Shown here: positions 6,620 to 29,744 of the stretch, piece by piece
How positions within the stretch are numbered: position 1 is the stretch's first letter
How the letters are laid out: every line of letters starts with the position of its first letter
Position numbers and translations under genes: made by a program
The notes under the pieces: model-generated
The model's input: only the letters and a program-made list of their open reading frames with translations
The model's database searches: none
Told to the model about the DNA's origin: nothing
Source of the DNA: a virus
IMG/VR virus record: IMGVR_UViG_3300047312_000208
Location: 1 to 42,641 of that record
DNA: 42,641 bases
Strand: one strand, 5' to 3'

Positions 6620-7831
6620 ATGCCACTTCGCACTCGAGCACAGGTGATTCAGTCGGTGGGCTCTAGCGCTCGCCAGGGCCGCGCTGTACGTCGTGGTGGG
6701 AGTGGTGGGGGACGAGGTAACAGTGTTGGTGCCTTCCTCCAGCCTCACACGGGTAGGGCCGCAGGCCGGATCGCCAACGCCGAGGCGGGGACCGAATTCA
6801 ACCCCGCGATTCGCGAAGCTCGCCAGCAGGCGAAAGGCAGCCGCAAACGGCAGGCCGACATCGGCCAGTGGTACGGGCAGCTTGCCGGTGACTACGCCGG
6901 ATCCCAGGCCGCCGGCAACCAGGCGTTCAAGACCGCCCAGGACGCGGTCTCCAAACAGCTCGCCGAAGCTGGCGCCCGCGGTGCGGGTGAGGTCAACGAA
7001 CTGGCCGGCAAAGACGCCTCGATCGCCGCCCTGGTCGGCGGCCCGACCAACGCCGCCGGGCTCAGTCAGGCCGCGGCCGCGGGAGCTGCGGCCGATCGCT
7101 CGAGGGTGGCGCTCAACGCGCCGATCGCCAGCACCCAGGCTGCTTACCTCGCCTCCCTTGGCGGCCGGCGCACGGCGGCCCGGATGAAAGGGATCGAGGC
7201 CCGCGGCGAAGAGAGTGCCCGCCGCGAAAAAATCCTTCAGGACCTCGGTGCCGCCCGCAAGGAAAAGGGACAGGCGAAGGTCGGCAACCTCGAGAAGATC
7301 CGCGAATCCGATCGCGGTTACTCACTCGAACAGCGCAAGCTCCGCCAGGCCAAAAAGGAAGCGGCGATCTCCGCCCGGCAGGCTTCGGCATCGCTCGCCG
7401 TCACCCAGGCCAACTTGCAGCGCCAGGTCAACGAAGGACGGATCTCCGCGCAGCAGGCCCAGGAACGGATCGCGGTCGAGCGGCGCAACGCGGCGACGTC
7501 GGCGCGCTCGCAGCGGGCGACAGCGAAGCACTACAAGGAAACCCCGACTGGCGGCCTGACGGCTTCGGAGAAACGCTCGATCAAGCAGGGCCATCAGAAC
7601 GCGGTGGCGACCGCACACAGCCTCGTCAAGGCATCGGGGCACGGCTACCCGAAGAACGCGCAGGGTTGGGCGCAGCTCGAAGAAGCGATCCGCGCCGAAT
7701 CCGAAGTCAGCCCGGCCGAGGCCCGCGCCGCGGTCGCCCGGATGAAACGCGAACAGGGCAAGGCGGCCCAGAACAAGTACCCGACTCGCGCCGCGCTGGA
7801 AAAGGCGGCCGGCGGCGGGATGCACAGGTAG
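6620..7831 (+). CDS. Long helical basic virion protein, putative ejection component
   Basis: A 403-aa protein starting 3 bases after the preceding stop. It is dominated by Ala, Arg, Gln, Lys and Glu, predicted almost wholly helical, with repeated motifs of the type SARQA/AQQAQERIA between residues 200 and 310. Such helix-rich proteins upstream of a giant ejection protein are usual for podoviral inner-core proteins. Function is inferred from position and composition only. Confidence 0.75.
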   Translation: MPLRTRAQVIQSVGSSARQGRAVRRGGSGGGRGNSVGAFLQPHTGRAAGRIANAEAGTEFNPAIREARQQAKGSRKRQADIGQWYGQLAGDYAGSQAAGNQAFKTAQDAVSKQLAEAGARGAGEVNELAGKDASIAALVGGPTNAAGLSQAAAAGAAADRSRVALNAPIASTQAAYLASLGGRRTAARMKGIEARGEESARREKILQDLGAARKEKGQAKVGNLEKIRESDRGYSLEQRKLRQAKKEAAISARQASASLAVTQANLQRQVNEGRISAQQAQERIAVERRNAATSARSQRATAKHYKETPTGGLTASEKRSIKQGHQNAVATAHSLVKASGHGYPKNAQGWAQLEEAIRAESEVSPAEARAAVARMKREQGKAAQNKYPTRAALEKAAGGGMHR

Positions 7832-7838
7832 GCCCCCG

Positions 7839-10800
7839 ATGGCCTTCGGCTCGGGTCTCCTCGATCGCCTCGTGAAGGAGGCGGCCAAACCGCCAAAGCG
7901 GGTGGCACCGCCGAAGGTCAAGATCCGCCCGATCAAGCCGCCGGCCCCTCCGCGCCCGATGCGGACGCCGCCGATCCACAATCCCTACATCGCCAAGCCG
8001 TCGCGGCCTAAGCTGCGGCGGCTTTCGCCATCTCCGGGGCCGATCAGGACGCCGATCCAGGCCCTCCACCACACCCAGGCGGTCTTGGCCAAACACCCGA
8101 ACCCGGTAATGCGGGAGGCGGCCAGTCGACTGCGCCACGCGCTCGCTTCCGAGGCCCTCTTCAAGGCTCGCCAGCCGAGCCCCGAAGGCAGCGGCAACTA
8201 CCCCTCGCCGGCGCTGAAACGGTTGGCGCCGCGGGCCTACGCGAAGTCGCGCCGGGTGCAGCTGAAAGCCGGCAGCTCCGGTGGGGCGACGGCCGACCCG
8301 ATCGCCGAAGCCGTGATCGCCACCGGGGCGACTGCGGGGCTCGGTGCCGGCGCCAAGCTGGCCGGGCTCGCCGGCAAGGCGGGGGTCGAGGCGATCGGCT
8401 CGAAGCTCGCCTCTAAGGAGGCCACGGTCGGCGCCGAAGCGGCCGGCCACGGGATCAAGGCGCTGGCCGGCTCGGCCGGGAAGGCGATCGAGCGCGGTGC
8501 CTCGAGGCGTCTCACCCGGATCCGCGAGACGCCGACGCGGGTCAGAACGGCACCTCTCAGGGCCGCGAACCGCGTTAAAGCGGCCCCGAGGGACCTAAGA
8601 CGCGCCGCTACGACCCCCGAGGGCCGTCGTGCGGCCGCCAGGGCGACTGCGCGCTCTGCTCGCCGCCATCCGGTGCGGGCCGGCTACGGGGCCGCTGTGG
8701 CGCTCCCTCCGGGCGTCGTGCCGGGTGACGTGACCAATCGTGCCAGGGCTTTCGCCCAGGGCTCGGCACAGGCGATTCTCCGCCACCCGGTCGAAACCGC
8801 GCAGACGACGGGACGTTCGCTCTCCGCGGCGATCACCGCTCCTGCCGCGCTCGCCGAGGCCGCCGGCCTCTCGGCGATCCACGGCAACCCGAAGTACCTC
8901 GAGAACACGGCCTCCGCACAAGCCAAGGGGCTCGGGCACATCTTGGGGCAGTCGTTCTCGGGTAGCACCAAGAAGGCCGAAGAAGCGGCCCGCAAGGAAG
9001 GCTCACTGTCGTTGCTGACGCCGCTGCCGGCGCTGACCCGGCTGAAGGCATACGAGCGCGGCCGCGGGGTCCTGCGGCGCTCGGCCGCAGACGTCCGGCG
9101 CAACGTCGCGGCTCGATCGGAGAAGCTCAACCGCCGCGTCCGCCACGCGCCGAAAGGGATCGAGCAGCCGGTCTTCGGGTTGGCCGCCCGCCACGGCGAG
9201 CGCAAGACCACGGCGCTGATAAAGCAGCGCACCGACAACCCGTTCCGCATGGCGCGCTCGGCCCACCGGGAGAAGATCACGGCGCACATGGCGAAGGCGC
9301 CGAAGGGCTCCGACGTCGCCTTCCAGACTGCAGCCGAATTCGGGATCCGCGATCAGCGGATGGCCGATCTGGTTCGAGCGAAAGGGCCCGGCGACCCGCA
9401 TCTCATCAAGGCGCTCGACTACATGGATCGTCACCCTGGGCTGTGGCGCGACCCCCACTTCAAGGAGGCGCTGAAGGCCGGCGACGCGAACTCCAAAGCG
9501 CTGCCGGCCTCGCTGGTCGGCAAGGGCGAGAGGGCGCGACTGATGGCACAGGGTGATCTCTTCGGGGTCACGCGGCCCGAGAATGCCGTCCCCTTCGGCG
9601 CCCGTCACCTGACCCTTGCCCCCGATCGCCAAGGGGCCTACGAGGATCTCGCCCAGCTCGAGAAGACGGCCAAGGGGATGCGCCGGGTGGGCCACGACAA
9701 ACTGGTCCAGGCTCGCGTCCTGAAGGGCGCCCGGCAGAGCCGCAAAAAATCAGAGGTCGCGGTCCACTACCGCGATGCCCGCAAGCTCGAAGCCCACGCG
9801 AAGGCACTTCGCAACGCACTCGAGTACGGCCGCCCGAAAGGGGCGCGTTTCCGCGGCGAGCAGAAATTCACCAAACCGGGTGTCTCGATCGACCGCTCCG
9901 CCGGCAAACCGTATGACTCGCGGCTGCTCGCTGAGCACAAGGCGAAGGTCGAAGCTGCTCGCCAGGCGGCCGGCGCCGCTCCGGCGATCTGGACCCACCA
10001 TGCCGAAGCTCCCGGTCACGGCTCAGGTTTCGAGAATCCCTTCCCGACGCCGGCCGGGAGGGTTGAGCACATGCGCACCGGCCAGCTCGCCAAGGAAGGC
10101 AAGCTCGATCGCAGCTTCGAGTCCTACGTCAAGGGGACGATCGACCTGCCGCGCCAGCGGGAGTCCGGCCGCCGCTTCATGCGCAACTTGGTCGAGCACT
10201 ACAAGACGCCGTTCACGATCGACGGCAAGTCGAAGATGGTCGGCCAGGGCTCGAAGGACTGGAACGCGATTACCTCGAGGCGCGACGCCGCACACCCGAA
10301 CGGCGGCCAGATCGACCCGAGCTCCTGGGGCCGGCTCGCCTACCGCGAGTGGAAGAACGCGCTGAAGGATCCCTACATGAGCGAGGCCGAGAAGCAGGGC
10401 AAGCTCGACGCGTTGCTGCGCGATGCCGAGGCCGGCAAAGTGAAAGGCTCAGAGCCCTGGGTGCTGGTCCCGCGGGAGGCGATCAAGGAGGCTCGGCTGC
10501 AGATCACCCCGGAGCACTCGGCGATCGTCCAGGCGCTGAACGCCGGCAGCCGGATCGCCAACCGTTCGATCCTCGCCACCAACCCGGCCTGGGAGGTCGC
10601 CCAGACCGTCGCCGAGGGGATCCCGATCATCCTCGCCCACCCCGAGGCGTTGCTCAAGGCCCCACAGGTTCTGCGCGACATTCACCGTTACCACAAGTCC
10701 AACCCCGAGGGAGCAATCGCCCTCGAAGCAACTGCCGGCGCCGCGCCGATCTCCTCGGCCGCGCTGCGCACCCCGCTCGATATGCAGGAGACCTACACCC

Positions 10801-12164
10801 CGGCGCTCTGGGAGGAAGGCGCCAAGGAGCTGACCCGCGGCAAATCGGCGAAAGAGGCACTCAGCTTCGCCAAGCTGCGGACCTTGGGGCGGATCGACGC
10901 GAAGCGCCAGAACGTCTACCGGACGACGCTCTACGCCCTCGAGGCCGACAAGCGCTTCCGCAGCTTCCACTCCGGGCTGACCGGCCTCTTCGACAAGCAG
11001 CGCCAGCTCTCGGGCAAATTCAAGACGCGGGAGGAGCTGTGGAATTGGCTCGAGGGGACCAAGGAGGGCCGCGTCCAGAAAGCCAAGCTCGAAGACTACG
11101 TCGACAACATCGCCGGCAACTGGACCGCCTTCTCCCACTTCGAGCGCACCTACGCCCCGCTGGCAATCTTCTACGGGTTCCTGCGCTACTCGCTGCGCTG
11201 GACGCTGTGGACCTTCCCGAAAACTCACCCGGTGACGGCGACGATCGCCTACATGCTCGGCCAGCAGAACTCGAACCAGATCGAAAAGATCATCGGTGGC
11301 AAACCGTCCAATCCGCTCGAGTACGCCTACCCGGTCTACTCCACCCCGAGCGGCAAGAAAGCGGTGTTGCCGGCGGGCTCGAGGATCTCTCCTGGGCAGT
11401 CGCCTTTGACCCAGGTGCTCGCCACCGGAAACCCCGGCCAGGTGGTCTCCTCAGCCAACCCGCTCGTCGCTGCCGGCTATACGGCGTTCTCCGGACAGGA
11501 ACCGCTCAGCGGGGAAAAGTCGACGCTGCCGGCCGGGTACGCGGCGATCAAACAGCTCCTTGCGATGCCGGCGCCGGTCAGGGTCAATGCCCCGGACGGG
11601 ACGCCGCTGATCGGCGGCACGTCGATCTCGCAGAAGATCCTCGAGGCACTCGGTGCACCGTCGCAGTCGGCGGCCTCGAAGGCGTATGAAAAGTTCGACA
11701 AGAACCGTGGCCTGCGTTCACTCCTCTTGCCGCCACTGCCGCAGTCAGCTGCCGCCCTGCACGGCTCTGAGCACCTGAGCAAGGAGTTCGCCAAGAAGTA
11801 CGGTCAGGGCCACGTCCCCGGCCCGTTCGACTCGGCGATGGTGCAGGACTTGCTCTACGGCGGTCCCGGTGGCACCCCGCAGCCGAAGAAGCTGAAGGCG
11901 GTGCTGAAGGCGATCCACGGCTCCGAAGCTGCCAGTGCCTTCGTCAAAAAGGCCGAGCAACCGACCTACGGCAAGGGCAAGCCCTTCACGGCGACGCAGA
12001 AGGCGTTGCTGAAAGCAGTCGAAGAAGCCTGGACGACGGGACCTGGCGCCGCGGCCGCGTCGGGCTCCTCGAATCCGTACATGAAATCGACATCGGCCTC
12101 CTCCGGCAACCCGTACATGAAGTCCACCGGCAGCTCGTCCGGCAATCCCTACATGGGAGGTTGA
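7839..12164 (+). CDS. 1441-aa putative internal virion / DNA ejection protein
   Basis: The largest gene. The N-terminal 300 residues are Pro/Lys/Arg/Ala-rich with several hydrophobic Gly/Ala stretches (for example VIATGATAGLGAGAKLAGLAG) that could insert in a membrane. A long mixed central part follows, with an aromatic segment near residue 1110-1125 (FYGFLRYSLRWTLW). The C-terminus ends in three copies of a Ser-rich NPYM repeat at about residues 1412-1441. I see no muralytic glutamate motif or protease motif. Size and position before the lysis genes match podoviral ejection proteins (role of T7 gp16 or N4-type giant virion proteins). A tape measure role is unlikely because no tail-tube genes are present. 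Confidence 0.75.
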   Translation: MAFGSGLLDRLVKEAAKPPKRVAPPKVKIRPIKPPAPPRPMRTPPIHNPYIAKPSRPKLRRLSPSPGPIRTPIQALHHTQAVLAKHPNPVMREAASRLRHALASEALFKARQPSPEGSGNYPSPALKRLAPRAYAKSRRVQLKAGSSGGATADPIAEAVIATGATAGLGAGAKLAGLAGKAGVEAIGSKLASKEATVGAEAAGHGIKALAGSAGKAIERGASRRLTRIRETPTRVRTAPLRAANRVKAAPRDLRRAATTPEGRRAAARATARSARRHPVRAGYGAAVALPPGVVPGDVTNRARAFAQGSAQAILRHPVETAQTTGRSLSAAITAPAALAEAAGLSAIHGNPKYLENTASAQAKGLGHILGQSFSGSTKKAEEAARKEGSLSLLTPLPALTRLKAYERGRGVLRRSAADVRRNVAARSEKLNRRVRHAPKGIEQPVFGLAARHGERKTTALIKQRTDNPFRMARSAHREKITAHMAKAPKGSDVAFQTAAEFGIRDQRMADLVRAKGPGDPHLIKALDYMDRHPGLWRDPHFKEALKAGDANSKALPASLVGKGERARLMAQGDLFGVTRPENAVPFGARHLTLAPDRQGAYEDLAQLEKTAKGMRRVGHDKLVQARVLKGARQSRKKSEVAVHYRDARKLEAHAKALRNALEYGRPKGARFRGEQKFTKPGVSIDRSAGKPYDSRLLAEHKAKVEAARQAAGAAPAIWTHHAEAPGHGSGFENPFPTPAGRVEHMRTGQLAKEGKLDRSFESYVKGTIDLPRQRESGRRFMRNLVEHYKTPFTIDGKSKMVGQGSKDWNAITSRRDAAHPNGGQIDPSSWGRLAYREWKNALKDPYMSEAEKQGKLDALLRDAEAGKVKGSEPWVLVPREAIKEARLQITPEHSAIVQALNAGSRIANRSILATNPAWEVAQTVAEGIPIILAHPEALLKAPQVLRDIHRYHKSNPEGAIALEATAGAAPISSAALRTPLDMQETYTPALWEEGAKELTRGKSAKEALSFAKLRTLGRIDAKRQNVYRTTLYALEADKRFRSFHSGLTGLFDKQRQLSGKFKTREELWNWLEGTKEGRVQKAKLEDYVDNIAGNWTAFSHFERTYAPLAIFYGFLRYSLRWTLWTFPKTHPVTATIAYMLGQQNSNQIEKIIGGKPSNPLEYAYPVYSTPSGKKAVLPAGSRISPGQSPLTQVLATGNPGQVVSSANPLVAAGYTAFSGQEPLSGEKSTLPAGYAAIKQLLAMPAPVRVNAPDGTPLIGGTSISQKILEALGAPSQSAASKAYEKFDKNRGLRSLLLPPLPQSAAALHGSEHLSKEFAKKYGQGHVPGPFDSAMVQDLLYGGPGGTPQPKKLKAVLKAIHGSEAASAFVKKAEQPTYGKGKPFTATQKALLKAVEEAWTTGPGAAAASGSSNPYMKSTSASSGNPYMKSTGSSSGNPYMGG
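12076..12160 (+). repeat. Tandem NPYM repeat at the 3' end of the giant gene
   Basis: Three tandem copies of a unit encoding SSGNPYMKSTxS lie at the end of the 1441-aa gene. DNA copies share AATCC/AACCC-TACATGAA cores about 39 bp apart. Short, exposed terminal repeats may contact another virion component (inference). Confidence 0.75.
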
Positions 12165-12165
12165 C

Positions 12166-12408
12166 GTGACGACCGCAGAGCAAATCGACAAACGTCTCGC
12201 CGACCTCGAGGCGACAGTCTTCGGGGTCCGTGGCACAGGTGGGCTGCTCGACCAGCTCACCGGCCTGCGTCGTGACTTCCGGGCCTGGCGCGAAGAGGAC
12301 TCCGAGAAGCGAGTCGCCTCCCAGCGAGCCGCGGTGATCGCCCTTGGCTCTGCTTGCTGCGCTCTCCTTGCCGTGATCGCGACCCTGATTGGAGTGATCG
12401 TGAAATGA
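12166..12408 (+). CDS. XhlA-like small membrane protein (holin accessory)
   Basis: An 80-aa protein with a GTG start one base after the previous stop codon. Residues 1-50 are a charged coiled-coil-like region; residues about 55-79 are one hydrophobic membrane segment ending in K. This layout is that of hemolysin XhlA-type proteins, which assist holins. The ribosome-binding site is GGGAGG. Its stop overlaps the start of the next membrane protein. It begins the lysis cassette. Confidence 0.6.
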   Translation: MTTAEQIDKRLADLEATVFGVRGTGGLLDQLTGLRRDFRAWREEDSEKRVASQRAAVIALGSACCALLAVIATLIGVIVK

Positions 12409-13025
12409 AGCCCGCCCCAGAGTTGAGCCTGCTCGAGAGCTGGATCGCCGAACACTCGATCCGCATCTTCCTCCTGATCGCGGGGATCATGCTGCTCGGT
12501 GCCGGCGGGATCCTGCTCACCCTCCTCAACCAGGAATCGACCCAGCACCAAGTCGACGTCCTGAAGCCCCAGGTGACGAAGATCGTTCGCGCCGCCAATA
12601 CCTGCGACGCGAACGCGCTGACCCACAAACGGGCCTCTCGCGACTGCGCCACACAGATGCGCATCGCCCTCGTTGTCTGCCGCCGGCACCCAAAGTGCCA
12701 GGCCGCCTTCCTGGCGACCCTGCAGCTCCCCCCGCGCGTCTCGAGGGGGGGTGGTGCACAGAACCCGTCTAACCCGGGTCAGCAACCAGGGCCGGGCCCC
12801 GAACCCGGCCACAGCGGGCACGTGCACCACGCGGCGCAGCCGAAAAAGCCGCCCAAAAAGCACCTTCCCAAGTCGGTCCCTACGTTGCCGGCGCCCGCTC
12901 CGCCCGAACTACCTGCTACTCCTCCTGCCCCTGGAAACTCAGGCAATACGCCGGGCGGAGAACACGGCGTAAAGGCTTGTGTCGACGTCGCTGTCAGTGC
13001 TTGTGTCAAAGTCGAAGTTCCCTAA
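12405..13025 (+). CDS. Single-pass membrane protein with Pro-rich tail, lysis cassette
   Basis: A 206-aa protein starting with an ATG that overlaps the previous stop. Residues about 20-43 form one clear membrane helix (IFLLIAGIMLLGAGGILLTLL). A Cys-containing region (residues 60-100) and a long Pro/Gly/His-rich tail follow. With one N-terminal helix and a large soluble domain it could be a holin regulator or spanin-like envelope protein. No family is recognised; function is inferred only from its place between XhlA-like and holin-like genes. Confidence 0.7.
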   Translation: MKPAPELSLLESWIAEHSIRIFLLIAGIMLLGAGGILLTLLNQESTQHQVDVLKPQVTKIVRAANTCDANALTHKRASRDCATQMRIALVVCRRHPKCQAAFLATLQLPPRVSRGGGAQNPSNPGQQPGPGPEPGHSGHVHHAAQPKKPPKKHLPKSVPTLPAPAPPELPATPPAPGNSGNTPGGEHGVKACVDVAVSACVKVEVP

Positions 13026-15929: not shown

Positions 15930-16008
15930 GGGGGCGTGTGGAGCACTACATGGCCCCAGCTGACGAGCTGGGCCAGCCTGAAGGCGGGTTCGATTCCCGT
16001 CGCCTCCA
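15930..16008 (+). other. tRNA-3'-end-like sequence, candidate attP core
   Basis: GCGGG-TTCGATT-CCCGT (15984-16000) is a T-arm with a consensus T-loop. CGCCTCC (16001-16007) plus A matches an acceptor 3' strand, and GGGGGCG at 15930-15936 could pair with it (one G-T pair). The interior does not form a normal D-arm or a 7-nt anticodon loop, so this is not a convincing functional tRNA. Tyrosine-recombinase phages often carry the 3' end of a host tRNA gene as attP, and a recombinase gene starts 427 bp downstream. Candidate attP by inference. Confidence 0.55.
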
Positions 16009-25799: not shown

Positions 25800-26042
25800 G
25801 TGCCCGGTGAACGCCGCGTGCCCTTGACCCACGAGGCACAGAGGACTCTCCTCCTCGCCCGCCGCCGCCGGATCCCTACCGGCTTCGACACAGGGCGGCG
25901 GGAGCTTCGCCGGACTGCGGCTCGTCAGGGCCAGCGGACCAAACGACCGACTGAGAAGGGTGCACCTGCACGGCTGCCTGGCTGGGGGTGGCCTGCCACG
26001 GCGTCCGGCGAGGAGAGCTTCACGGCGGTCGGGACGCGTTGA
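25800..26042 (+). CDS. Possible small Arg-rich protein
   Basis: An 80-codon open frame with GTG 25800 about 8 bases after GAGGGA. Product is very basic (RTLLLARRRRIPTGF, RRELRRTAARQGQRTKR). Its end runs into the tRNA-like element at 26024, which makes it doubtful. It could be a chance frame in a regulatory region. Confidence 0.35.
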   Translation: MPGERRVPLTHEAQRTLLLARRRRIPTGFDTGRRELRRTAARQGQRTKRPTEKGAPARLPGWGWPATASGEESFTAVGTR

Positions 26043-26129
26043 GTAAGTCGCCCGAGCATGGCAGGCACGTGACCCCGCTTCGGCCTGTGAGCAACTCGGG
26101 AGAGGCCGGTTCGACTCCGGCGGCCGCCA
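26024..26129 (+). other. tRNA-like element with abnormal anticodon arm
   Basis: GGCGGTC (26024-26030) pairs with GGCCGCC (26122-26128) as a 7-bp acceptor with A next. GCCGG-TTCGACT-CCGGC (26105-26121) is a perfect T-arm. GAC/GTC (26033-26035/26047-26049) could be a 3-bp D-stem and CCCGAG/CTCGGG (26051-26056/26095-26100) a 6-bp anticodon stem. But the anticodon loop would be 38 nt rather than 7, and removing 31 nt never gives a U33-containing loop. It may be a tRNA mimic, a degenerate tRNA or a second integration-site-like sequence. Confidence 0.5.
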
Positions 26130-26164
26130 CCCCTTCGTACGTTTGTCCGGCCGGCAGGATTCGA

Positions 26165-26941: not shown

Positions 26942-27125
26942 GATATGGCCGGACATAGTTCCCGACCCGACGTTGCCCGAGGACCACGTGAAGATCCTCT
27001 ATGGCGAGACGGCCGTCGTCTACCGCGCCGACTATGAGGCCGAGACGCTGGTCGCAGTGGCGAGCTGGCCGGAGATCCCGGTCAAGAATCATCGCCAGCT
27101 AGGGCCCAAAAACGCCGCGCCCTAA
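26934..27125 (+). CDS. Small protein, unrecognised, convergent with the leftward cassette
   Basis: A 63-aa protein starting at ATG 26934 inside the end of the TerS-like gene (8-base overlap). Mixed sequence (EDHVKILYGETAVVYRADYE) suggests a small alpha/beta fold. Its TAA (27123-27125) overlaps the stop of the opposite-strand protease gene, with no terminator between them. Confidence 0.6.
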   Translation: MSEIWPDIVPDPTLPEDHVKILYGETAVVYRADYEAETLVAVASWPEIPVKNHRQLGPKNAAP

Positions 27126-27544
27126 GAGCGAGTCAGCGAGCGCCAGGTGAGCGCCCAGCAGACCGGCGGCAGGTGCGAGGGGTCCGGGTACATGATCGAC
27201 CGCGGGTCGGTGGAGTGCTGCAGGCCGCGCAGGTGCCCCAGCTCGTGAGCCTCGAACATGCAGGCCGCGCCGATGTTGCGCGGAGCTGCCAGGGAGCGCA
27301 CGACGTAGAGCCAGCAGGGTTGCGGGACGGCGGTAGTGATCGTCGCTTCGCCCATGATCCCGGCCCCTAGCGAGCCGTCAGGGACGATCTGCCGATCCAG
27401 CGATGTGCAATTCAACGGCCCGCCGCCCCAGAATCGCTCTGCGGCCGTGTAAGCCCTTGCGAGTGAGGGCGTGAAGGGCGCCGCCGACGCTGCCGGCGCG
27501 GCGATCAAGCCGGCCAGCAGCGCAGCGGTGAGGGCACGTTTCAT
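27122..27544 (-). CDS. Secreted zinc metalloprotease, metzincin/matrixin-like
   Basis: A 140-aa protein. Residues 1-22 are a signal peptide (MKRALTAALLAGLIAAPAAS, cleavage near ASA-AP). The active site is the full metzincin signature HExxHxxGxxH (H100, E101, H104, H110: HELGHLRGLQH), followed by a Met-turn IMYP (117-120). Four mature Cys (46, 77, 95, 129) may form disulfides. The mature part, about 118 aa, is near the minimum for a matrixin-like fold. Its ATG overlaps the previous stop (ATGA). It would act outside the host membrane; substrate unknown. Secreted proteases are rare in phage genomes. Confidence 0.8.
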   Translation of the reverse strand: MKRALTAALLAGLIAAPAASAAPFTPSLARAYTAAERFWGGGPLNCTSLDRQIVPDGSLGAGIMGEATITTAVPQPCWLYVVRSLAAPRNIGAACMFEAHELGHLRGLQHSTDPRSIMYPDPSHLPPVCWALTWRSLTRS

Positions 27545-27897
27545 GGCGCGGGGATCGCCTCTACGGCCTCGTGGGCGTCGTACAGCAGACTCCCCCATTC
27601 GGTGAACGCCTCGACCTTGCCCGGCGTCACGTTGCCAATCGCACGGATGCGCGACCAGGCCGGTGCTCCCGGCGCTTTGACTTGCCACCCCGGCCCCAGC
27701 TCGCGAGCCCGGACCGTGTGGGACTGCGTTGCTTCGAGCTGGCGGCAGCGATCCTCCAGCGCGTTCTTGTATTCGATCAGCGAGTCTGTCGAGCTGTCCT
27801 CCTCCTCGCTGTAGCTGCAGGCCGCGCGCAACTCGGCCAGGGGATCGACGTCGGCCCCCAGGCCGTCAGCGGTTGCCATCTCTTGCTCTGCGTTCAT
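27541..27897 (-). CDS. Protein of leftward cassette, unrecognised
   Basis: A 118-aa acidic protein. ATG 27897 follows AAAGGAG and is preferred to an upstream ATG that would translate the hairpin spacer. Residues 30-65 are helical and charged (LIEYKNALEDRCRQLEA). The C-terminal half may be a small beta fold. It is coupled to the protease gene by ATGA. Function unknown. Confidence 0.7.
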   Translation of the reverse strand: MNAEQEMATADGLGADVDPLAELRAACSYSEEEDSSTDSLIEYKNALEDRCRQLEATQSHTVRARELGPGWQVKAPGAPAWSRIRAIGNVTPGKVEAFTEWGSLLYDAHEAVEAIPAP

Positions 27898-27968
27898 GGG
27901 TGCTCCTTTGGTCGTGTTGGGTGCTGCAAGGGGCGCCGGGGAATCGAACCCCGGCAACTCCATTCGCC
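27898..27968 (-). ncRNA. 71-nt intercistronic element with T-arm-like hairpin (copy 2)
   Basis: The spacer is exactly 71 nt, like copy 1 at 28901-28971, and about 73 percent identical to it (52 of 71 by eye). A perfect 7-bp stem GCCGGGG/CCCCGGC (27955-27949 and 27941-27935) encloses TTCGATT, a consensus tRNA T-loop. Two stem pairs differ from copy 1 by compensatory swaps. The 3' part ends in AAAGGAG, the ribosome-binding site of the next gene. No acceptor or anticodon arm is present. Confidence 0.7.
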
Positions 27969-28322
27969 CTAGACCGCAGTCGGCTCGCGCCGCTGCAGCA
28001 AGCCGACCAGCTCGACCAGCTCAGTCACTTCGCTCTGCGATGCCTTCAGCTGGGCGCGTAGCGCGGTGACGCTCGGCCCCCGTCGCTTCGCCTTGACCTT
28101 CGCCCGTGGCTTCTTGAAGGCCGCCAAGCGAGCCCGAGCAGCTCCGATGCTCTGCCCGTCATCCAACGGCGCCAGGCCGTGTCGACCGCGGATCTCAGTC
28201 GAGACCACGAGGACCCGGTCATAGGCGCCGACCGCCGCTGCCAGCTCAGCTCGCGGCAGCTTCGCCATCGGTCGATTGCGAGCCCGTCTCGCCTTGCTCG
28301 TGTACTCCGGTCCGCCGATCAT
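27969..28322 (-). CDS. Basic protein of leftward cassette, unrecognised
   Basis: A 117-aa protein, very basic in the first 90 residues (KARRARNRPMAKLPRAELAA, FKKPRAKVKAKRRGPS), ending in a helix that could dimerise (LRAQLKASQSEVTELVELVG). Its ATG overlaps the upstream stop (ATGA). It may bind nucleic acid. No family recognised. A short ATG at residue 19 is an alternative start. Confidence 0.65.
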   Translation of the reverse strand: MIGGPEYTSKARRARNRPMAKLPRAELAAAVGAYDRVLVVSTEIRGRHGLAPLDDGQSIGAARARLAAFKKPRAKVKAKRRGPSVTALRAQLKASQSEVTELVELVGLLQRREPTAV

Positions 28323-28900
28323 TCGCTCAGCTCCGGCACGACCCGGCGGGCGAACTCTTCAGCCGTCTCCCGATCATCACCGAGCAGCTCGACCTCTGCC
28401 GACCCCGACCAGGAGTAGCGGTAGACGATCCGCCGAATGTGATGACCCTGTACTGCGTTGTGTTCGCATTCGACCACGAGACGCCGATCCGGCCCTCCCG
28501 TGCCGAGCACGATTTCAAAGCAGACCGTGCGGTCGACGCAGAGCGGCAGCTGGTAGAGCCGCTCTTGTGCTGCCTCGACGATTTCTGACTCGTCCGCTGG
28601 CCCCTCCAGGTCGAGCACGTGGAGCATCTGGGTCTTATCCAACTCGCGGCCGCCTTCAGCGAGCGCGACGAGCAAGGCGATGTCGTCCAGCGCGTCCCGC
28701 ATCGACACGCCGACGTAGGCGGTGACGTCCGTCTCGTCTTCAGAGGGGTGGATGCGAATCCCTTCGCCGCGGTCGATCCGCCTTTCCGCCTCACGGCGGT
28801 AGACGTCTTTCTCAGTGGGCGAGAGATGGCGCCAGACCTTGACGGCATCGCTCGCTAGCTGCTTGGCCGCCGCTTCGCGGTCGGTGGTGATCTCACTCAT
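28319..28900 (-). CDS. Protein of leftward cassette, unrecognised
   Basis: A 193-aa acidic protein. ATG 28900 follows GAAGGAG; the longer frame would translate the hairpin spacer and is rejected. N-terminal helices (AAAKQLASDAVKVWRHLSPTEKD) are followed by an alpha/beta body with strands such as TVCFEIVLGTGGPDRRLVVE and an acidic end. No catalytic motif seen. It is coupled to the next basic protein by ATGA, so an acidic-basic pair that binds each other is possible. Confidence 0.7.
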   Translation of the reverse strand: MSEITTDREAAAKQLASDAVKVWRHLSPTEKDVYRREAERRIDRGEGIRIHPSEDETDVTAYVGVSMRDALDDIALLVALAEGGRELDKTQMLHVLDLEGPADESEIVEAAQERLYQLPLCVDRTVCFEIVLGTGGPDRRLVVECEHNAVQGHHIRRIVYRYSWSGSAEVELLGDDRETAEEFARRVVPELSE

Positions 28901-28971
28901 GGGAACTCCTTCGGTTGCGTTCATGGGTACAAGGCGCGGCCGGGAATCGAACCCGGCCAACTCCAGGCGCG
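28901..28971 (-). ncRNA. 71-nt intercistronic element with T-arm-like hairpin (copy 1)
   Basis: A 71-nt spacer between a 57-aa gene and the 193-aa gene. The stem GGCCGGG/CCCGGCC (28958-28952 and 28944-28938) encloses TTCGATT. The hairpin begins 13 nt after the upstream stop and ends 37 nt before the next start, the same distances as copy 2. Position 15-33 is G-C here and C-G in copy 2; position 17-31 is C-G here and G-C there. Function unknown: RNA processing site, translation control or tRNA mimicry are options. Confidence 0.7.
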
Positions 28972-29145
28972 CTAGAGAGGCTCAGGCAGGCCGAGCCATT
29001 CGCGGATTGCCCGTTCCCCGTTGCCAGTGAGCCGGGCGGCGCGTTCGACGCTTTCAGCGACGCTCATCCCCATCGCCCGCCCATCGAGGAAGGCCGTGCG
29101 AGCCTCTCGCTTGACTGCGTCGACCGTGGTCCGTGTGGTTGCCAT
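28972..29145 (-). CDS. 57-aa helical protein of leftward cassette
   Basis: A 57-aa protein with ATG at 29145-29143 sharing one base with the upstream stop (TGATG). It is helical and basic: TRTTVDAVKREARTAFLDG, then MSVAESVERAARLTGNGE and IREWLGL. The second half resembles a small helix-turn-helix or Arc-like unit, so it might be the DNA-binding regulator of its own cassette (inference). Confidence 0.6.
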   Translation of the reverse strand: MATTRTTVDAVKREARTAFLDGRAMGMSVAESVERAARLTGNGERAIREWLGLPEPL

Positions 29146-29345
29146 CAGGACTGGTCGATCAGGAAGCCGACGACGCCCAAGTGGTAGTGGCGCTCGACGT
29201 AGGTGAGGATCTGCGCATCCGGCGTCTCATCGAGCAGGAAGCGGGCGTCCTCGTAGCACTCCAGCTCGAAGGGGTCGCAGTCAGCGATCCAATCGCGCAT
29301 CGAGTCGAGGGTCTGTGCCGATTGCTCGGCGAGTGTGCGTGGCAT
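29145..29345 (-). CDS. First gene of leftward cassette, small acidic protein
   Basis: A 66-aa acidic protein. ATG 29345 is chosen because GAAGGAG lies at ideal spacing; an ATG 30 bases upstream has none. Its leader (ATGAACG...CCGAAGGAGCACC) resembles those of the genes at 28900 and 27897. Sequence is helical (AEQSAQTLDSMRDWIADCD). No family recognised. Confidence 0.65.
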   Translation of the reverse strand: MPRTLAEQSAQTLDSMRDWIADCDPFELECYEDARFLLDETPDAQILTYVERHYHLGVVGFLIDQS

Positions 29346-29382
29346 CTGGTGCTCCTTCGGTCGTAGGTCGTTCATGCCCGAT

Positions 29383-29411: not shown

Positions 29412-29744
29412 GGGGTCGACAGCGGAAGCGGACGCATAGACGAGGCCGCTCGATGCGGACTCGCAGGCAGGGAACGGCACAACGACACGACGCGCGCCGG
29501 GTCAAAGGCGCGAGCTGGTCGACGGGTGCTGCCTTGTCAACCCACGGGGAATGTCAACCCAAGCAGGCGTGGATCATTCGAGCGTGTGAGTGAGCACGCG
29601 TGAGCTACTCACTTTCGGCCAGTCTCGGCCTGGACCCTCCGGTCGTTTCACGACCAGCGCGCGGTTGTCTGGGGGGCGGGGGAGTCGCCGTGATCGCGCG
29701 CCCGCCCTTACTTAAATCACCTCCCCCACCGACAAGAATTTGAC

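Follow-up and report, generated by a model that had tools for sequence, protein, structure and literature searches.

Two 71-nt spacers in a leftward gene cassette of a virus each carry a miniature tRNA, made up of an acceptor-like stem, a linker with GG, and a T-arm, with no anticodon arm. The window analysed here is the whole 42,641-nucleotide IMG/VR virus record IMGVR_UViG_3300047312_000208, and the spacers lie on its minus strand at 28901-28971 and 27898-27968. We regard the structure class (an anticodon-less mini-tRNA) as secure. From the structure of the elements and their observed position between genes, we infer that they probably serve as RNase P-type processing signals which divide polycistronic phage mRNA.

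The two elements of the window

The cassette runs, in minus-strand order, through genes for proteins of 76 aa (29145-29375) and 57 aa (28972-29145), the first spacer, genes for 193 aa (28319-28900) and 117 aa (27969-28322), the second spacer, and genes for 118 aa (27541-27897) and 140 aa (27122-27544). Both spacers therefore separate overlapping gene pairs: the first pair (28972-29375), upstream of element 1, overlaps by one base (TGATG), while the second (27969-28900), between both elements, and the third (27122-27897), downstream of element 2, each overlap at ATGA. The 140-aa gene at the cassette end encodes a small protein with a matrixin-like M10 metallopeptidase match. Upstream of the cassette are two TTGACA hexamers, 11 nt apart (29535-29557, minus strand), which are possibly part of a promoter. 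A comparison of cassette DNA with named phages found no similarity.

The original prediction for this DNA had described two spacers of exactly 71 nt, about 73 percent identical, each with a 7-bp hairpin (loop TTCGATT) 13 nt past a stop and 37 nt ahead of a start, and with two stem pairs swapped between the copies. Measurement bears this out: both spacers have that length and carry the hairpin at those distances, the two swapped T-stem pairs are present, and the ungapped identity is 52/71 (73.2%), compared to only 24/71 and 25/71 for the adjoining 71 nt on each side. The same prediction held that the spacers encode a structured RNA inside a polycistronic mRNA, which the preserved compensatory changes support, but that it resembles only the T-arm of a tRNA, which was too narrow, since each spacer also has an acceptor stem and a GG like that of a D-loop. 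It overlooked the conserved linker (TGGAGTTG) and a second helix. This helix, GCGCG/CGCGC in element 1 and GGGCG/CGCCC in element 2, has a compensatory swap of its own: acceptor pair 2 is C-G in element 1 and G-C in element 2. This acceptor-like stem is 5 bp long in both copies and closes directly onto the T-arm.

Element 1 (28934-28972, minus strand) shares its first base with the gene before it, as the G (28972) of the TAG stop of the 57-aa gene (28972-28974) is base 1 of the acceptor-like stem. The 5' strand of this stem, GCGCG (28968-28972), pairs with the 3' strand, CGCGC (28934-28938), a pairing indicated by covariation. Between these strands are a 10-nt linker, CCTGGAGTTG (28958-28967), which contains the D-loop-like GG and replaces the D and anticodon arms, and the 6-bp T-arm, GCCGGG TTCGATT CCCGGC (28939-28957), which could gain a seventh pair only at the expense of the innermost pair of the acceptor. 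The 3' strand is followed by CTTG, with no CCA, and a Shine-Dalgarno-like AAGGAG (28906-28911), read directly from the DNA, precedes the ATG at 28900.

Element 2 (27931-27969, minus strand) is built in the same way. The G (27969) of the TAG stop of the 117-aa gene (27969-27971) is base 1, the 5' strand GGGCG (27965-27969) pairs with CGCCC (27931-27935), and the linker AATGGAGTTG (27955-27964) leads into the T-arm CCGGGG TTCGATT CCCCGG (27936-27954). CTTG again follows the 3' strand with no CCA, and a directly read Shine-Dalgarno-like AAAGGAG (27903-27909) precedes the ATG at 27897. The linker sequence TGGAGTTG is conserved between both spacers, with UGG within its 10 nt; in tRNA, the GG of the D-loop contacts the T-loop. 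There is no D stem in the window copies and no obvious stem-loop after the element in either spacer.

The two elements exceed what chance would give. A pattern of the T-arm, TGGAGTTG, and TAG occurs twice in the window and not once in 100 shuffles. We also built a covariance model (R2) from 28 elements of other phages, leaving out the window phage and its relatives. With filters off, R2 falls below an E-value of 0.03 at only these two places in the window, i.e., 28926-28977 for element 1 (36.6 bits, E 2.4e-7) and 27923-27974 for element 2 (45.4 bits, E 1e-9), and the next-best match (17.1 bits) covers a T-arm only. Nearest-neighbour folding of the whole window spacers is no better than that of shuffles (z -0.02 and -0.38), so the window evidence consists of covariation and the profile match, not folding energy.

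Conservation in syntenic relatives

Homologues of the 193-aa protein in relatives are 43-65% identical. An element stands before this gene or its homologue in five phages (the window phage, L040, L041, L053, and L199) and before the 118-aa gene in three (the window phage, L040, and L053). L040 also has a homologue of the 76-aa gene, likewise upstream of the element. Lost pairing in homologous spacers, or a lack of similar elements between the cassette genes of relatives, would have spoken against a structured RNA. We looked for both: pairing is intact at both positions, despite changed stems, and similar elements are found in L040, L041, L053, and L199.

In L002, none was detected before the 193-aa homologue and two were detected in neighbouring spacers; elements are therefore gained and lost. 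Scanning viral records with the 117-aa protein added no further relatives. Two further readings of the spacers were dropped: the linker TGGAG as a ribosome-binding site (relatives read TGGCG, TGGCT, and TGGTT) and a coding function (the changes disregard codons).

A family of anticodon-less elements

We collected the family by sequence-pattern scans of IMG/VR and a structure scan, which together yielded 161 distinct mini elements in 97 loci, or 203 with a slightly wider rule, in phages with a GC content of 31-69%. Inserts between acceptor and T-arm fall into two length classes, 8-16 nt (with a peak at 10) and, as in ordinary tRNAs, 38-46 nt, with almost none between. Counts of copies per phage are lower bounds, because the models R1 and R2 fix a 10-nt linker and penalise variants with D-arms or hairpins. 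A loose TAG pattern has many matches with neither stem, which were used as controls, and the one match from a pattern scan of genome contigs was unrelated and rejected as chance.

Pattern P7 fixes no acceptor letter, so acceptor pairing among its matches is unbiased by selection. All five acceptor pairs form in a fixed register in 50 of its 109 distinct matches (shuffle mean 2.3, maximum 8), and the outer four T-stem positions are paired in 82/109, versus 4.3 in shuffles. Most of the remaining matches, judged by eye, seem to pair if one additional 3'-side base is allowed. The linker GG is present in 78/80 elements that match no seed pattern. Across elements, an acceptor of 5-7 bp is combined with a T-stem of 5-7 bp and a near-invariant T-loop (UUCGA.U), and the total helix is 11-13 bp in 151/153 non-redundant cores, with the scan limited to 7 bp per helix. 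A pair-count covariation score of 1.00, versus 0.20 in shuffles, is illustrative only, as these elements were chosen for pairing.

Acceptor, GG, and T-arm form the core that stays constant among variants. In longer linkers, YGGU is often enclosed by a mini D-arm of 3 bp whose stems covary (CCC/GGG, GCA/TGC, GTA/TAC, ATA/TAT, CGA/TCG, and GCT/AGC), and such a covarying 3-bp stem occurs in 16/33 long linkers. Four L259 forms of 55-62 nt, which Rfam scores as tRNA, have a D-arm of 4 bp but likewise lack the anticodon arm. In some spacers of the Mycobacterium phages Indlulamithi and Cuke, the place of the anticodon arm is taken by a hairpin of no set length.

Several single variants were also seen. 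An L018 element (7100-7165, minus strand) has a 24-nt linker with two TGGAGTT(T)GG repeats, and a TAG overlaps its base 1. L283 is dense with mini elements at 1500-2900, some of which have T-loops of the TGCAAAT type instead of TTCGATT and were missed by the scans. The window itself has a tRNA-like sequence at 26024-26132 (plus strand), with a 7-bp acceptor (GGCGGTC/GGCCGCC), a T-arm of 5 bp whose loop is TTCGACT, and, replacing the anticodon arm, an inserted long hairpin (CCCGAG...CTCGGG); for this sequence, ARAGORN and Rfam make no call. At 15930-16008 (plus strand), shortly after a terminator-like inverted repeat, there is a large variant with acceptor GGGGGCG/CGCCTCC, a T-arm with TTCGATT, and the hairpin CCCAGCT GACG AGCTGGG between.

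Standard tools overlook nearly all of the mini elements. ARAGORN makes no tRNA calls in the window or in 15 loci given to it, and its tRNA-Ile call over an L001 element is likely false. Rfam reports nothing in the window at the gathering threshold. A search with E allowed up to 5 gave one sub-threshold tRNA match (23.9 bits). Across nine loci, Rfam reports no mini element, only one ordinary tRNA, the four tRNA-like L259 forms, and HEARO. In a search of open-access journal papers, we found no earlier account of such elements recurring naturally in phages or bacteria.

Position in phage genomes

Elements tend to follow genes. Among 182 elements unselected for TAG, 134 stand at the end of a same-strand ORF, versus 38% of random positions. 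Stop-to-element offsets cluster at -2 (the TA|G overlap) and around -15 to -9. An obligatory TAG was considered and dropped, as sets unselected for it contain TAA (66), TAG (48), and TGA (20). The TA|G overlap seen in the window recurs in nine further elements, from related or similar loci. Downstream, a Shine-Dalgarno sequence and start codon lie within 110 nt of 65/203 elements; the rate is 15% at random positions and 9% antisense. The 35 nt past the element fold more stably than their shuffles (mean z -1.49, versus -0.33 further downstream). CCA is found within 5 nt after only 6/153 mini elements, versus 125/306 full-length tRNAs from the same loci. In each record listed, all model matches are on one strand.

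Named phages with elements include Streptococcus phage EJ-1 (one copy), Javan199 (two), and Clostridioides phage phiCD27 (one), and a 166-kb Ligilactobacillus salivarius plasmid has six model matches, with more found by scan. Indlulamithi and Cuke have about 11 model matches each, on one strand, one of Cuke's being partial. In the Indlulamithi region gp40-gp50, an element is present in 9/9 listed spacers of 85-222 nt, eight found by the model and one by eye, the latter with a long hairpin where the anticodon would be. The deposited records annotate no RNA features there. L226 (1-3200) looks like Indlulamithi, in that nearly every spacer has a mini-tRNA, a stem-loop of the TTCGCA...TGCGAA type, and a Shine-Dalgarno sequence.

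Two records have dense arrays with no clear genes between the elements: L259, with about 15 mini-tRNAs in 2.2 kb (10700-12900) plus further copies, and L283, with about a dozen in 1.5 kb. The L259 array follows a gene whose product has an SSB-like DDLPF tail. The L259 record is viral, 180 kb long, and related to a linear plasmid of L. salivarius; the record also contains a HEARO RNA, and the plasmid encodes TnpB.

Proposed role and alternatives

The elements are natural, have the parts of an RNase P substrate, and lie between genes, so a processing signal is the simplest reading. Processing by tRNA enzymes was among the roles first suggested for the window hairpins; it pointed in the right direction and is the role we prefer. 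The mechanism we propose involves an elbow contact, cleavage, particular enzymes, and an effect on expression. The acceptor-like stem is stacked on the T-arm, giving 11-13 bp in total (cf. 7+5 in tRNA), and the linker GG would probably dock on the T-loop to form a tRNA elbow. Recognising the stack of acceptor and T-arm, host RNase P would cleave directly before base 1; in the window this cut would fall inside the TAG stop (TA|G) and remove the G of UAG. A 3' tRNA nuclease (e.g., tRNase Z) may cut past the 3' strand of the acceptor. In this way, the long leftward mRNA would become two-gene units, each beginning just ahead of its own Shine-Dalgarno sequence. Stem-loops at 5' ends protect bacterial mRNA, and in many other phages a protective stem-loop would become the new 5' end of the next message.

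Some evidence weighs the other way, including the uninformative folding energies of the window spacers and the lack of an obvious stem-loop behind their elements. The elements usually lack the 3' RCCA with which RNase P substrates pair with RNase P RNA. CCA is also missing from many natural pre-tRNAs before CCA addition, and for RNase P it is a preference, not a strict requirement. Its absence weakens RNase P cleavage in vitro, with an example from phage T4, which counts against punctuation (PMC11143913). Knocking down RNase P had no effect on a plant t-element mRNA (PMC4368725), and resemblance to tRNA is thus no guarantee of cutting.

The dense arrays in L259 and L283 are more than punctuation alone can account for, and suggest that some elements act in trans. 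It is conceivable, though unlikely, that this holds for the elements generally, i.e., that they are stable small RNAs which mimic tRNA and titrate or occupy host tRNA-binding enzymes or defence nucleases, with their intergenic place incidental. Besides the arrays, the L259 forms with a full 4-bp D-arm that Rfam scores as tRNA fit this account, but it leaves unexplained the tight link to stop codons, the single element in each Indlulamithi spacer, and the downstream stem-loop. Having no anticodon, the elements would also be no decoy for anticodon nucleases. A little less likely again is that they remain uncut and act as 3' ends or insulators, where a stable structure after the stop protects the upstream mRNA or blocks ribosome run-on. 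The stop-codon position and TA|G overlap agree with this, yet any hairpin would suffice, and the UUCGA.U loop, linker GG, and 11-13-bp stack are specific to tRNA.

Origins in DNA integration or recombination are both very improbable. In favour of decayed tRNA genes or T-arm attachment-site fragments, att cores usually coincide with the T-arm. Integrating elements also commonly leave partial tRNA genes behind (PMC9897764). Such a fragment would be the 3' part only, with no covarying 5' acceptor strand; here, acceptor strands covary across unrelated phages, which already contradicts it, and the many copies per phage with different stems, the insert length centred on 10 nt, and the synteny kept in relatives also count against it. 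The recombination seam between two-gene modules put forward in the original prediction draws on the fact that the window elements do part overlapping gene pairs. It fares no better, as the copies share only 73% DNA identity with compensatory changes at the RNA level, elements occur in unrelated phages, and in other phages they separate single genes. The same prediction also offered binding of a cassette protein, which is not needed to explain the elements.

Whether these anticodon-arm-less tRNAs form a widespread, undescribed natural RNA class that serves as a general punctuation code, in phages of at least Actinobacteria and Firmicutes, is in our view evenly balanced. Under such a code, host tRNA-maturation enzymes would cut the mRNA gene by gene, leaving a fresh 5' end behind a stem-loop and sometimes destroying the stop (UA|G). 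If the elements are cut, RNase P would be a general mRNA-processing enzyme during infection, and the minimal RNase P substrates used in vitro would gain a natural equivalent. A common phage RNA escapes the tRNA and RNA-family tools now in use, and it offers an easy marker for phage operon structure. Since it occurs in Mycobacterium phages able to grow on M. smegmatis, the proposal can be tested directly.

Comparison with known systems

The elements share with canonical tRNA (RF00005) an acceptor stem stacked on a T-arm, the T-loop consensus, and GG. However, they have no anticodon arm or 7-nt anticodon loop and usually no CCA, and their D stem is mostly absent or 3 bp long, with a 4-bp D-arm in some L259 forms. 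They fall outside the definition of a tRNA, and their function may instead be like that of a mitochondrial t-element.

Punctuation of mRNA by tRNA is textbook knowledge in mitochondria. There, as in plant mitochondrial t-elements, tRNA-like structures likewise stand at mRNA ends or between genes, and cutting by RNase P and related enzymes has been proposed. Our elements have the stack of about 12 bp with a T-loop and the position in mRNA spacers or at mRNA ends, on the same strand as the genes. Unlike the organellar t-elements, they belong to bacterial phages, are recurrent, covarying, and anticodon-less, and their cleavage is a proposal from structure.

The laboratory minimal RNase P substrates AT1, pATSer, and MD1 likewise consist of an acceptor/T-stem stack of about 12 bp, with a T-loop in hairpin versions, and are cut 5' of base 1. 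These are designed and usually end in a 3' CCA, whereas the elements are natural, CCA-less, and keep a linker with a D-loop-like GG. Host RNase P also cuts phage RNAs, namely bacteriophage M3 RNA, the P1/P7 C4 antisense RNA, and T4 gene 32 mRNA (PMC11143913), but these are single cases, not a repeated intercistronic family. The 3' tRNA-like structures of plant viruses are another form of viral tRNA mimicry, and some are RNase P substrates (PMC11143913). In contrast to those structures, of which there is one per genome 3' end, the elements described here recur with one in every operon spacer.
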